Part shown: one piece after another, positions 12,801 to 31,715 of the stretch
How positions within the stretch are numbered: the first letter of the stretch is position 1
How the letters are laid out: each line of letters starts with the position of its first letter
Assembly (NCBI GenBank): GCA_903902915.1
Contig: CAIUWR010000015.1
Coordinates: forward strand, 1 to 64,000
Reading direction: 5' to 3'
DNA: 64,000 nucleotides
DNA from: an uncultured Hyphomicrobiales bacterium
GTDB lineage: Bacteria > Pseudomonadota > Alphaproteobacteria > Rhizobiales > Beijerinckiaceae
Position numbers and translations under genes: made by a program
Notes under the pieces: generated by a model
What the model saw: only the letters and a program-made list of their open reading frames with translations
Told to the model about the DNA's origin: nothing
Database searches by the model: none

Positions 12801-13154
12801 GCTTTCGTCATCGCCGACCAGTCGTGCGTTGGAGTGGGTTTGCTGATCGGCGCCGCCCCGGCGTTGGGTCGATCATGCCATCCAGATCAAAGTATCGTTT
12901 CATAACATTTGCGAGCATATCGAAATATTTTCAGAAAGAATTTTTCGGGCCGCTCCAAAACGATTCATCAATGCGCTGAAAATCATGTTCATGGCTGATG
13001 GATCGCGTGGAAGGCGGATTTGAGTTCGGATATCTAGAGGGCTCAATTCATCGTTCGCGCAACAAACCGGATGTCGCCGTCATTCGTCATGATCGGCCCC
13101 GCCGCATGGGTGCGCATCTCAGGTTGATACGGTAAAGGTCCAGGAGATCGAGTT
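12801..13154. other. Intergenic region, no gene recognised
   Basis: 354 bases between the aminomutase-like gene and the channel gene. The middle is AT-rich (around 12895-12950) and is a likely site for the channel promoter, but I cannot name elements. AGGAG at 13142-13146 is the ribosome site of the next gene. No coding frame or RNA gene is apparent. Confidence 0.4.
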
Positions 13155-14771
13155 TTGATAGATCCCGTCCCGAACCAGGATAAAGGCGCCGCCGCAAGAC
13201 TGGGCAAGCGCCTTTATTCGTTCTTGCTTGATCCTGATGTCCCGGGAAACTTACAGCGCCCCATCGAGGGTTTTATCGCCTGTCTTATTTTATTGAACGT
13301 CGGCTCGATGCTCATCGAGCGGATTCCGGAGATCTACGAGCCCTTCAAGAAGTGGTTTCACTTCTTCGACACGCTCTCCATCATTGTCTTTTCAGCCGAA
13401 TATGTCGTCAGGCTGGCCCTGTGCCCGTTCGAGAAAAAGTCCGTCGGCCGTCGTTACCCGCGGGTTTCTTACGCATTCTCCCCCTTCGCCTTGGTCGACC
13501 TTCTCTCGATTCTGCCATTTTACCTCTCGGCGTTCGTCGCTCTGGATCTGCGCGTTTTGCGCGTGTTGAGGCTGCTGCGGCTCCTCAAGTTGTTTCGTGT
13601 GCTAATTCCCGCCTGGAAAGAATTTCGGCAGCTGAATGTTGGCCGCACGTTCCGCCAACATGTTCACGCCCTTGTCTGGCCCTCCCGGTTCGGCGGGCAA
13701 ATTCAAAAGTTTTTTGAGTTTTTCATCATCGCTTGGGTGGTGATATCGGTTCTGTCGGTCGTCCTGGAAACGGTTGATGCGGTTCATTACATCCTCGCGA
13801 TGGAATTTGCGGTCCTCGACTCGATCGCGGTCGCCGTGTTCACGATCGAATTCTTGATGCGGATGTATTCCTGCGTCGAGGATCCAAGGTTCAGGGAGCC
13901 TTATGCCGGCCGCGCCCGCTATGGAGTGACGCCGGGCGCCGTGATTGACGTGCTGGCTGTGCTGCCTTTCTTTCTTGAGGCGCTGCTGCATCACCTTTTC
14001 GATCTTCGTTTCCTGCGCATTTTCCGGATGCTTCGCCTTCTGAAGCTCACCCGTTTCAGCGATGCGACAAAACTGGTCTGGGATGGCATCAAGCGCGAAG
14101 CGAGCACCATCGGCGCCTCTTTCTTCGTATTGTTGCTCGTCATCATCCTGTGCGGCAGTCTTGGCTATCTGCTGGAACATGTCGCGCAGCCTGACAAATT
14201 CGAAAGCATCCCGGCGGCGATCTACTGGTCCGTCATCACGCTGGGCAGCGTTGGTTTTGGCGATATAACGCCAATTACGCCAACGGGACGATTTTTGACC
14301 TCCCTGATGGCGCTTTTGGGCATCGCGCTGATCGCGATTCCCTCCGGTATTCTGGCCGCGGCTTTCACCGACCAGCTGCGAATCGAGCGTGAAGCCATCG
14401 GCGGCAAGATAGCGGCGATCATGGAGGGCGCTGAAATTGACGCCGAGGAGAAAGCGCAGCTGGAAGCTGATTCGCGGCGCCTGCACATAACGGACATTGA
14501 GCTTGCTTCCATGATCGAGCTGGCGCAGCGGACCCGCAGCCTGGACAAGGCGCTGCGCACCGAGTTCAATCTTGCGGCGGCCAAAAGCGACCCGCAGCTC
14601 GCTTTTGAACAATTCCGGGGAATCGTCGCAAACATGCGGGAAATCATTGAAGTTTCGAATGAAAAACTGGCGGTCGTGATCGGGCGCGGCGCGAACGTAA
14701 GTCGGCTGGAAAAGGGCATTTATGAGCAAGTGGCCCTGGATTTGGGAACGTCGGCGCCCGACAAGCGGTGA
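13155..14771 (+). CDS. Voltage-gated potassium-type channel with two tandem voltage-sensor domains
   Basis: A 538-residue membrane protein with S1-S4 twice, then one pore. VSD1: S1 37-55, S2 69-90 (F79, E82, R86), S3 109-128 (D115), S4 with R133, R136, R139, R142, K145, R148. VSD2: S1 186-205, S2 216-238 (F229, E232, R236), S3 261-278 (D265), S4 with R285, R288, R291, R294, K297, R300. Then S5 about 318-340, a pore loop with filter TLGSVGFGD (362-370) and S6 about 378-403. The C-terminal 135 residues are soluble and helical, with no RCK or cyclic-nucleotide domain recognised. Potassium selectivity is inferred from the filter. The start is TTG at 13155 with AGGAG 8 bases upstream. A close paralogue is at 29.5-31.1 kb. 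Confidence 0.88.
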   Translation: MIDPVPNQDKGAAARLGKRLYSFLLDPDVPGNLQRPIEGFIACLILLNVGSMLIERIPEIYEPFKKWFHFFDTLSIIVFSAEYVVRLALCPFEKKSVGRRYPRVSYAFSPFALVDLLSILPFYLSAFVALDLRVLRVLRLLRLLKLFRVLIPAWKEFRQLNVGRTFRQHVHALVWPSRFGGQIQKFFEFFIIAWVVISVLSVVLETVDAVHYILAMEFAVLDSIAVAVFTIEFLMRMYSCVEDPRFREPYAGRARYGVTPGAVIDVLAVLPFFLEALLHHLFDLRFLRIFRMLRLLKLTRFSDATKLVWDGIKREASTIGASFFVLLLVIILCGSLGYLLEHVAQPDKFESIPAAIYWSVITLGSVGFGDITPITPTGRFLTSLMALLGIALIAIPSGILAAAFTDQLRIEREAIGGKIAAIMEGAEIDAEEKAQLEADSRRLHITDIELASMIELAQRTRSLDKALRTEFNLAAAKSDPQLAFEQFRGIVANMREIIEVSNEKLAVVIGRGANVSRLEKGIYEQVALDLGTSAPDKR

Positions 14772-29508: not shown

Positions 29509-31134
29509 CTAGCCAGGCTCCGGCGCCGTCTTTTGCTGGGCGACCTTCTCGTAGATGGTCTTTTCAAGAGGAGAGGCTTCCCCCTCCGGAATCATCATTC
29601 CAGCCAGCTTCTGGTCAGAGATCATGACCACTTGTTTTATCTGGCTGACAAGGCTGCGGAACTGCTCGAAGGCGAGTTCGCCGTCCTGGCTGGCGGCGTT
29701 CAGGTTGAACTCCGTTCTGATGGCTTTGTCCATCAAACGGTTCCGTTGAGCCATTTTGATCATCGAGTTCAATTCAGTCTCGGTGATGTGGAGCCGCTTT
29801 GCATCATCTTGCAGGAGGGCGTGTTCGTCCGCATTGGTGAACCCGCCTTCCATCAAAGCAGCAATTTTGCTTCCGATTTTTTCACGCTCGATGCGCAACT
29901 GGTCCGTGAAGGCGGCGGACAAGATACCAGATGGAATAGCGACGAGCGCGATGCCCAAAAGCGCCATCAGAGACGTGATGAATCGCCCCATCGGCGTGAC
30001 TGGCGATATGTCGCCATAGCCGACGCTGGAGAGGGTGATCACTGACCAGTAGATCGCCGTGGGAATGCTTTCGAACTTGTCCGGCTGCGCGGCATGTTCC
30101 AACAGGTAGCCAAGGCTGCCGCACAGGATGATCACGAGCAACAACACGAAGAACGAGGCGCCGATGGTGCCCGCTTCACGCTTGATGCCGTCCCAGACCA
30201 GTTTGGTCGCGTCGCTGAAGCGCGTGAGCTTGAGCAAACGCAACATGCGGAAAATTCGCAAGAAGCGCAGATCGAAGAGATGATGCAGCAGCGCTTCCAG
30301 AAAGAAGGGCATGACTGCAAGCGCGTCGATCACCGCGCCTGGCGTGAAGCCGTATCGCGCGCGGCCAGCCCATGCCTCCTTGAACCTTGGATCTTCGACG
30401 CAGGAATACATGCGCATCAGATATTCAGTGGTGAAGACGGCGACCGCGATCGAATCGAGGACCGCGAATTCCATGGCGAGGATGTAGTGAACCGCTTCCA
30501 CCGTTTCCAGAAGAACCGATACGACCGACAACACCACCCATGCGATGATGAACATGTCGAAGAAGCTATGAATCTGCCCGCCATACCGCGAGGGCCAGAC
30601 AATCGCGTGCACATGTTGGCGGAAGGTGCGCCCCTCGTTCAGCTCGCGATATTCTTTCCAGGCGGGGATGATGACGCGGAACAACTTGAGGAGCCGCAAC
30701 AGTCGCAGCACGCGCAGCATGCGCAGATCAAGCGCTATGAAGGCCGACAGGTAGAACGGCAGAATGGAAAGCAGATCGACGACCGCGAAAGGCGAGATCG
30801 CATAAGAGATTCGCGGAAATCGTTTTCCCGCGAAGCCTTTCTGATAGGGCGACAGCAGGAACCTGATGGAATATTCCGCCGTGAAGACGACGATGGAGAC
30901 CGTGTCGAAGAAATGGAACCATTTCTTGTACGGCTCGTAGACTTCCGGAATCTGCTCGATCAGCATCGAGCCGACATTCATTAGAATGAGGCAAGCGACG
31001 AAGTTCTCGATGATTCCCTGGAGATTCCCTTCAACGTCGGGATCCAGCAAATACGAATAAATCCGTTGACCAATGCTGGGACGAAGGGCGCCAGCCTTGA
31101 GGTCGCTGGTGGGTGGCAAGGAGGTCTCGGTCAA
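29509..31134 (-). CDS. Voltage-gated potassium-type channel with two tandem voltage-sensor domains (second copy)
   Basis: A 541-residue paralogue of the channel at 13.2 kb, nearly collinear. VSD1 has F84/E87/R91, D120 and S4 residues R138, R141, R144, R147, K150, R153; VSD2 has F234/E237/R241, D270 and R290, R293, R296, R299, K302, R305. The filter TLSSVGYGD (367-375) carries Tyr where the first copy has Phe. S5, S6 and the helical C-terminal region match the first copy. The gene starts within the stop codon of the 194-residue membrane protein upstream (ATGA overlap), implying coupled translation. Potassium selectivity and voltage gating are inferred from motifs. Confidence 0.88.
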   Translation of the reverse strand: MTETSLPPTSDLKAGALRPSIGQRIYSYLLDPDVEGNLQGIIENFVACLILMNVGSMLIEQIPEVYEPYKKWFHFFDTVSIVVFTAEYSIRFLLSPYQKGFAGKRFPRISYAISPFAVVDLLSILPFYLSAFIALDLRMLRVLRLLRLLKLFRVIIPAWKEYRELNEGRTFRQHVHAIVWPSRYGGQIHSFFDMFIIAWVVLSVVSVLLETVEAVHYILAMEFAVLDSIAVAVFTTEYLMRMYSCVEDPRFKEAWAGRARYGFTPGAVIDALAVMPFFLEALLHHLFDLRFLRIFRMLRLLKLTRFSDATKLVWDGIKREAGTIGASFFVLLLVIILCGSLGYLLEHAAQPDKFESIPTAIYWSVITLSSVGYGDISPVTPMGRFITSLMALLGIALVAIPSGILSAAFTDQLRIEREKIGSKIAALMEGGFTNADEHALLQDDAKRLHITETELNSMIKMAQRNRLMDKAIRTEFNLNAASQDGELAFEQFRSLVSQIKQVVMISDQKLAGMMIPEGEASPLEKTIYEKVAQQKTAPEPG

Positions 31135-31715
31135 AACTTGATCTCCTCGACTTTCACGGCCTCACCCCAGCGATTGCAAACCTGCACCCGCAGCGGCGTT
31201 TCTGTTGCTATGGAATCTTCATTATCGCTCGCAGCGTATGTGACTCCAGTCGTGCCCGCCGAGAACCAGGGCGTGCCTTTTTCAATGGTGATCAGGCCGA
31301 TGCTCTCGTCCGTTCCATCGCATGGCGGGCCGAAAACGGGATTATCGGGTTCAAGCACGTTCACCAGCGCGGCGATTTCAGGAAGGTGGGAAATCTCTTC
31401 CCAACATGGCCCCCATGTCAGTTTGCCGGCGTTTTCTTCGCGCAGCTGACAGTGCGGCAAATCAGATTGTCCGGCCTTGCGCTTCACGCCAATCGCGGTG
31501 AGCGTGTGCGCCACGCTTTCGGCGTTGCGCTTCGCGTTCTCGAGGTGATGAGCGGCTGTGAAGATGTTGCCCGCCAGAACTGCGATGCCAATCATCGAGA
31601 CGACGACGGTCGTGAGAAAAGCGACTGCGCCCACATCCGTCTTGTGTTTCGTTTGGGGTGCGGGCTCCGGGCGCCCTGCATCCAGGTGAAGGTCGAGCTC
31701 TGAATTTGCTGCCAC
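31131..31715 (-). CDS. Single-span membrane protein, candidate channel accessory subunit
   Basis: A 194-residue protein with a polar N terminus (1-27), one transmembrane segment (28-52, VAFLTTVVVSMIGIAVLAG) and a soluble domain of about 140 residues with four Cys (89, 104, 132, 180) that could form disulfides if periplasmic. No family is recognised. Its TGA overlaps the ATG of the channel gene by 4 bases, so the two are an operon; a role as partner of the channel is inferred only from this coupling. The first channel at 13.2 kb has no such neighbour. Confidence 0.7.
   Translation of the reverse strand: MAANSELDLHLDAGRPEPAPQTKHKTDVGAVAFLTTVVVSMIGIAVLAGNIFTAAHHLENAKRNAESVAHTLTAIGVKRKAGQSDLPHCQLREENAGKLTWGPCWEEISHLPEIAALVNVLEPDNPVFGPPCDGTDESIGLITIEKGTPWFSAGTTGVTYAASDNEDSIATETPLRVQVCNRWGEAVKVEEIKF

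Follow-up and report, generated by a model that had tools for sequence, protein, structure and literature searches.

Bacterial K+-type channel genes with two or three voltage sensors in series ahead of one pore: an apparently undescribed domain order

Two channel genes in the window

The window, which is the whole 64,000-nucleotide stretch analysed here (contig CAIUWR010000015.1 of an uncultured Hyphomicrobiales bacterium, assembly GCA_903902915.1), carries two paralogous genes with the order VSD-VSD-pore, that is, two voltage-sensor domains (VSDs) followed by one pore. Copy 1 is found at 13155–14771 on the plus strand and encodes 538 aa from a TTG start; copy 2 is found at 29509–31134 on the minus strand and encodes 541 aa, with 74% identity to copy 1 (alignment A1). 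The Pfam family PF00520 (Ion_trans) matches twice in copy 2 and twice in copy 1, where the scores in the genome search are 58.4 bits at 13260–13601 and 101.6 bits at 13707–14372, each above the curated cut-off of 25, and the pore family PF07885 matches copy 1 once. No NCBIfam model exceeded its cut-off for either copy; NF040645, the model for hyperpolarization-activated voltage-gated K+ channels, gave 56.1 and 63.2 bits against a cut-off of 300.

The first voltage sensor of copy 1 (residues 16–152, 13200–13610, plus strand) is delimited by the HMM domain, the sensor residues, a profile of first sensors and the structure model. It has a pre-S1 segment, E55 in S1, D72, F79, E82 and R86 in S2, D115 in S3, and the S4 charges R133, R136, R139, R142, K145 and R148. 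A linker of residues 153–165 (13611–13649, plus strand) follows, with the motif RTFRQ (residues 164–168), typical of multi-sensor members, straddling its end. The second, pore-proximal sensor (residues 166–304, 13650–14066, plus strand), supported by the HMM domain, residues and model, has E205, D222, F229, E232, R236 and D265, together with the S4 charges R285, R288, R291, R294, K297 and R300. The preliminary description had placed F79/F229, E82/E232 and D115/D265 at a fixed offset of 150, and these pairs are where it put them; the S1 glutamate (E55/E205) and the S2 aspartate (D72/D222) are likewise duplicated. It had also given both S4 helices six charges, one every third residue, and this holds for both, but the offset of 150 does not extend to S4, where it is 152.

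The second sensor is followed by the S4-S5 linker helix of the model (residues 303–314, 14061–14096, plus strand) and by S5, pore helix, filter and S6 (residues 316–424, 14100–14426, plus strand), assigned by Pfam, the model and the filter count. The filter, S365-V-G-F-G-D370, lies at 14247–14264 on the plus strand. The rest of the protein (14427–14768, plus strand) is a C-terminal helical region of no known family by Pfam and the model; the sole Pfam hint there was TerB, below threshold and in a single member (E 0.11). In copy 2, the HMM domains place the first sensor at residues 21–157 (30664–31074, minus strand) and the second at residues 171–308 (30211–30624, minus strand). The S4 charges and the charge-transfer Phe, Glu and Asp are present in both sensors of both copies, and the filter is of the K+ signature TxGYG type with Ser for the first Thr, being S-V-G-F-G-D in copy 1 and S-V-G-Y-G-D in copy 2.

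Structure model and fold comparison

The AlphaFold monomer of copy 1, built from a 34-sequence alignment, has a mean pLDDT of 86.2 and a pTM of 0.70, and within residues 11–310 every ten-residue block has a pLDDT of 83–96 except 281–290 (77). Two S1-S4 bundles are formed in it, and the S4 of the first continues into the second sensor. The helices of the first sensor are S1 34–54, S2 58–92, S3 110–127 and S4 132–160, those of the second are pre-S1' 166–174, S1' 181–205, S2' 208–242, S3' 260–277 and S4' 284–301, and the pore part comprises the S4-S5 helix 303–314, S5 316–341, the pore helix 352–364 and S6 376–424. The two sensors are thus joined with no intervening pore, the first S4 being a single helix that is followed by the pre-S1' helix and then by the next S1; together with the single PF07885 match, this agrees with the earlier statement that no pore follows the first sensor. 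The model is a monomer, and the position of sensor 1 around a tetramer cannot be safely read from it.

In a Foldseek search of the PDB, Kv4, KCNQ, Kv1 and Kv2 channels were among 111 matches at E ≤ 0.001, of which Kv4.2 was the best; for example, 7uk5_A aligned over 266 columns with a TM-score of 0.75 (by target length) and an rmsd of 3.6. None of the best 50 of the 111 carries a title naming a double-sensor single-pore protein, and a viral fold library gave no match at E ≤ 0.001. By sequence, the best PDB match was KCNQ5 for the copy 1 protein and KCNQ2 for the profile. A profile of first sensors alone (A3, 14 chosen rows) matched 165 distinct PDB chains at E ≤ 0.01, with E reaching 6.6e-17, and among the best 60 of the 165 are the S1-S4 regions of Cav, Nav, KCNQ, Kv4 and Kv2 channels of solved structure. 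No double-sensor single-pore precedent was present among the best 60 sequence matches or the best 50 fold matches.

Conservation and selection of the first sensor

The residue table covers 28 non-redundant double-sensor genes and 7 three-sensor genes with complete domains, giving 42 N-terminal sensors. Contig-end fragments (the first ORF of L074, L081, L096 and L098), second copies of the L109/L114 type and the divergent Gemmobacter gene described below stand outside the 28, of which 25 come from one alphaproteobacterial family and 3 from single-contig genomes of another class. The S2 Phe, Glu and Arg, the S3 Asp, R133, R136 and R139 are kept in all 42 N-terminal sensors. The R142 position (R in 39, K in 3) and the K145 position (K in 39, R in 3) show R/K exchange only, while at the R148 position 39 sensors have R, one has H and two have a gap. 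The S1 Glu is missing from one sensor of the 42, and the S2 Asp position carries an acidic residue in 41. The mean entropy of the N-terminal S4 charges is 0.15 bit, compared with 0.85 bit for the remaining S4 columns, and none of 20,000 random 12-column sets was as conserved as the 12 key columns of the N-terminal sensor.

In 13 gene pairs, the first sensor has a dN of 0.03–0.16 and a dS of 0.72–1.79; because this dS is near saturation, only the direction, dN below dS, can be trusted. By identity, the first sensor is more variable than the second in 10 of the 13 pairs. The profiles, the conservation, the selection and the confident monomer model support the central claim of the preliminary description, that one K+-type pore is preceded by two complete sensors. 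As a separate observation, identity between the paralogues L030 and L031 of one genome (G015) is 94% over sensor 1, 86% over sensor 2 and 47% over the C-terminus, a pattern for which gene conversion of sensor 1 is a possible explanation.

Distribution and sensor number

Full or nearly full double-sensor genes are present in 11 of the 37 genomes of the window genus; the other 26 are without a full double form, and several of those genomes are incomplete. In the sample of the taxonomic family, 23 of 248 genomes and 5 of 43 genera matched at E ≤ 1e-110, some of the matches being contig-end fragments. In the order sample, 9 of 397 genomes matched, with multi-sensor genes in two (the own genome and G365) and only one-sensor relatives, judged by the matched range, in seven; in the class sample, the single match among 240 genomes was the own genome. 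The phylum sample gave 23 matches among 398 genomes, with the double form in the own genome and in G771 and only one-sensor relatives, again judged by the matched range, in 21. In the family of G771, 3 of 200 genomes matched, all from one genus, each a single contig and each with one double-sensor and one one-sensor gene, and in its class the one match among 274 genomes was G771 itself. All these counts are lower bounds, because E cuts of 1e-75 to 1e-110 may miss divergent double-sensor genes.

Beyond the phylum, the distribution is drawn from one contig scan and from tblastn against phage and plasmid records. The contig scan, with close-relative patterns and including GenBank MAGs, returned six loci, of which three are double-sensor loci in records titled Beijerinckiaceae bacterium. 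Among 5 phage and 56 plasmid records, none had a place covering 80% of the double-sensor query, and none of 98 plasmid records had one covering 80% of the three-sensor query; the best plasmid match, with 71% of the query covered, is nonetheless a double-sensor gene. The gene (L174, 3722–5197), whose plasmid is complete and comes from Gemmobacter aquarius HYN0069, a named, cultured freshwater strain of the Rhodobacterales, widens the double-sensor family to another order. It is divergent, encodes 491 aa with sensor domains at 45–178 and 194–328 and a single filter TLSSIGYGD, and its annotation reads simply "ion transporter". Inspected by eye, the first sensor carries Leu where the charge-transfer Phe is expected and retains roughly three S4 arginines, and the second sensor is without the first two S4 charges. 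This degraded first sensor indicates that the first sensor can decay and persist without the full set of sensing residues.

Genes with three sensor domains and one pore, 692–726 aa in length, are present in 7 of the 12 genomes of the sister genus g32. In one of them (L041), Ion_trans matched at three stretches, and every position of the residue table is kept by all three sensors in 7 of 7 three-sensor genes. The preliminary reading as VSD-VSD-pore was too narrow, since sensor number in the family takes the values 1, 2 and 3 and one subfamily is accompanied by an abutting accessory-like gene.

Several loci deserve separate mention. On a 6936-base IMG/VR contig (L098/L116), a plus-strand double-sensor gene is truncated by the contig end; next to it, on the minus strand, are P22-like portal and phage lysozyme genes, with a UPF0114 gene on the plus strand, and the channel reads as carried by a phage or prophage. 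Many K+ channels of this group are found on further IMG/VR contigs (L117–L159), with 54 loci matched and 37 distinct one-sensor proteins besides L116; PHROG 7872, of unknown function, matches channels of this kind. In L074 (G975), three channel-like ORFs of 427, 302 and 175 aa stand in tandem at the contig start, the third having a sensor and no filter. In genome G981, a contig-end channel gene (L082/L113) has one in-frame stop in the matched stretch, and a three-sensor gene is present on a separate contig.

History of the sensors

The filter is S-[VI]-G-[YF]-G-D in 37 of 37 multi-sensor rows, with L074 and L098 entered as double by hand in this count and in the pore tree. Its first residue is Ser in all 37 of these rows; of the 36 one-sensor rows, 32 have Thr, and the four with Ser are L071–L073 and L082. 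The inter-sensor motif is found in 29 of 32 two-sensor rows (the exact motif is absent from L050, L069 and L070), in 7 of 7 three-sensor rows and in 3 of 39 one-sensor rows, again L071–L073.

In a VSD tree of 68 chosen rows, the pore-proximal sensors (dV2, tC) fall together with the one-sensor channels, and a single branch (SH-aLRT 93, not starred) separates all N-terminal sensors from them. In the three-sensor genes, sensors A and B form a group of their own (93), which is nested among the N-terminal sensors of subfamily II (98). With a root among the one-sensor channels, this topology corresponds to a single gain of one N-terminal sensor with a later doubling, and it is most likely, as far as the sequences can tell, that the N-terminal sensor was gained once and doubled again for the three-sensor form. 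In the pore tree, the 37 multi-sensor rows and five one-sensor rows make up a single group of 42 (94/85), and a grouping of the 37 without the five nested rows is rejected (p-AU 0.018). Because of this rejection and of the motif and the Ser filter in L071–L073, these three rows look like losses of sensor 1. Another of the five is L082, the contig-end gene with the in-frame stop. L074c forms a long branch in the pore tree and its placement is unsure.

An accessory-like gene upstream of the channel

Directly upstream of copy 2, at 31131–31715 on the minus strand, is an intact gene of 194 aa with one predicted membrane helix, whose TGA overlaps the TTG start of the channel. Upstream of copy 1, a remnant of this gene is left (13123–13158, plus strand), consisting of the last 11 codons (VDTVKVQEIEF) and the stop, which overlaps the channel TTG start, as if codons and stop had been kept because they are needed for translation start. 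By eye, a start-like stretch near 12997 is also left of the copy 1 accessory gene.

Across subfamily I, the gene stands directly upstream of the channel and its products are 186–317 aa long, counted from the first start codon. One hydrophobic segment was found in the three members tested, and four cysteines are invariant in 11 aligned members. By tblastn, 20 of 21 subfamily I upstream regions matched, of which 12 had themselves supplied the queries and one (G1158) matched weakly (30%, E 1.7e-11); the exception is copy 1 of the window. In 15 of the 21 loci, the accessory gene ends in a range from 14 bases before to 3 bases past the annotated start of the channel; in four further loci its stop is about 36–45 bases inside the channel, counted from the first possible channel start. 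No match was obtained in 12 other upstream regions (subfamily II, three-sensor, one-sensor and the broken L113), three of them shortened by locus ends, and the region upstream of the Gemmobacter gene gave no convincing match (best E 0.003). In a separate profile search of 61 genomes, the accessory gene was present in 11, and these are the same 11 that have a full double-sensor gene. In Pfam, with 4 of the 11 aligned members scanned, no cut-off was reached, the closest family being FtsL_2 in one member (19.6 against 24.6 bits).

On the basis of this genetic linkage, the product is probably a dedicated, co-translated accessory subunit; to our knowledge, it would be an early candidate for such a subunit of a bacterial voltage-gated K+ channel. 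Accessory subunits such as KCNE, Nav beta and DPP6-type proteins have one membrane helix and a further domain. The accessory-like protein shares this layout, but the four members scanned reach no Pfam cut-off, and its tie to the channel is known from gene linkage.

Comparison with known systems

Voltage-gated channels are taught as having one sensor per pore unit. The present proteins resemble Kv-type channels (KCNQ/Kv7, Kv4, Kv2 and bacterial six-helix Kv) in that sensor 2 and the pore align with them and the filter is of the K+ type; they differ in having two sensors in series (28 tabulated genes) or three (7). Two-pore channels (TPC) also have two S1-S4 units per chain, but in these a pore follows each sensor, giving two S1-S6 repeats, whereas here no pore follows the first sensor and PF07885 is found once. 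Hv1, the voltage-sensing phosphatase and TMEM266 likewise contain a sensor with no pore attached directly to it. Here, such a sensor precedes a second one and a K+-type pore in the same chain, and the protein as a whole has the S5-S6 pore that a lone-sensor protein is without.

The preliminary description knew of no VSD-VSD-pore channel, and none came to light among the papers listed from the accessible full-text literature, mostly outside subscription papers, or in the PDB matches given above. Neither of the findings that it had named as refuting it emerged in these searches: an already described family with this domain order, or a structure in which one of the repeats is not a membrane-inserted sensor. 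The passages available from the 2024 review Voltage sensors (PMC13095418) do not mention two or four VSDs, or tandem or duplicated sensors, and in the part available of PMC3439648, the phrase "three voltage sensor domains" denotes the other subunits of Kv1.2/2.1. The order is genuine, conserved and apparently undescribed in the voltage-gated K+ channel superfamily.

Proposed mechanism and alternative explanations

In the proposed mechanism, each subunit would present two S1-S4 sensors in series (three in the sister genus) followed by one S5-P-S6 pore, and four subunits would assemble into a K+-conducting channel with 8 (or 12) sensors per pore. Gating would be driven by the pore-proximal sensor via its S4-S5 linker, as is usual. 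The N-terminal sensor, intact in most members, should sense the same field and would act as a modulatory sensor in series, affecting the gate only indirectly; because the first S4 is one helix into pre-S1', its movement would most likely act on sensor 2. In subfamily I, the one-helix, four-cysteine accessory protein would join the channel. The steeper or dual-range gating suggested in the preliminary description for a tetramer with eight sensors would be a possible consequence. That these are K+-type channels with serial sensors, in which the N-terminal sensor modulates the pore-proximal one, is considered somewhat probable. The fuller proposition, a K+ channel family with a variable number of functional serial sensors (8 or 12 per pore), with inter-sensor action before the gate and with its own accessory subunit, is advanced tentatively, at slightly under an even chance.

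The conserved sensor residues could instead be kept for folding, and the first bundle may be a structural or docking module for assembly, clustering or partner binding, which looks like a sensor and is irrelevant to voltage gating. The first bundle is indeed unjoined to the pore, its S4 passes into a linker, it is the more variable sensor in most pairs, and Gemmobacter retains it despite degraded sensor residues, a case that slightly lowers the likelihood of the serial-sensor reading and raises that of the structural one. However, the S4 charges and the Phe, Glu and Asp are among the most conserved columns of the 42 N-terminal sensors, and the changes at R142 and K145 preserve the charge, so a purely structural role is judged unlikely. 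It has also been considered that the first sensor is an accessory-dependent switch, whose main role is to bind the one-helix subunit and thereby determine inactivation or another voltage range. The abutment of the two genes and their occurrence in the same 11 of 61 genomes would fit such a switch, but the subfamily II and three-sensor loci examined and copy 1 are without an intact upstream accessory gene, and nothing convincing precedes the Gemmobacter gene, which makes this explanation quite improbable.

An isolated VSD can conduct in Hv1, and by this precedent the first bundle might carry a proton or omega current of its own while fused to a K+ channel; against this, the six-charge S4 is uninterrupted and, by eye against the Hv1 signature, there is no mid-S1 Asp, and own conduction is regarded as highly improbable. 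An artefact of gene fusion, frameshift or chimeric assembly, conceivable for a window genome assembled in 102 contigs, is rejected as next to impossible, since the same order recurs across many genomes, including three single-contig genomes of another class, GenBank MAGs and a complete plasmid.

If the serial-sensor reading is true, the family would amount to an experiment by nature on the effect of sensor number on voltage gating: its one-, two- and three-sensor members would let nature vary sensor number, coupling and gating charge without engineering, and would show how a pore can be steered by sensors that are not attached to it. One member comes from a strain that is named and in culture, Gemmobacter aquarius HYN0069.

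Gene neighbourhood

By eye, the genes around the window copies look metabolic. The neighbourhood partly recurs in loci of the same genus, and some multi-copy gene families recur elsewhere as well. The one-sensor channels of G771-type genomes and a double-sensor channel of G1066 (L102, L104, L105 and L108) have acetate kinase, phosphate acetyl/butyryl transferase and enoyl reductase genes as common neighbours; a PhaC-type gene is also present in L105 and L108 (by clusters, with Pfam on L108 only). Multi-sensor channels are found near flagellar motor and export genes in two classes, with MotB and FlhB in G771-type genomes and L100, L101, L109 and L114 among the loci. The G1066 channel is near MotA, MotB and a FlgE-type hook protein, and the G1008 channel likewise by cluster membership. 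This proximity is at most a lead to control of membrane potential or motility. In L114, a one-sensor channel is located about 2 kb from the multi-sensor one.
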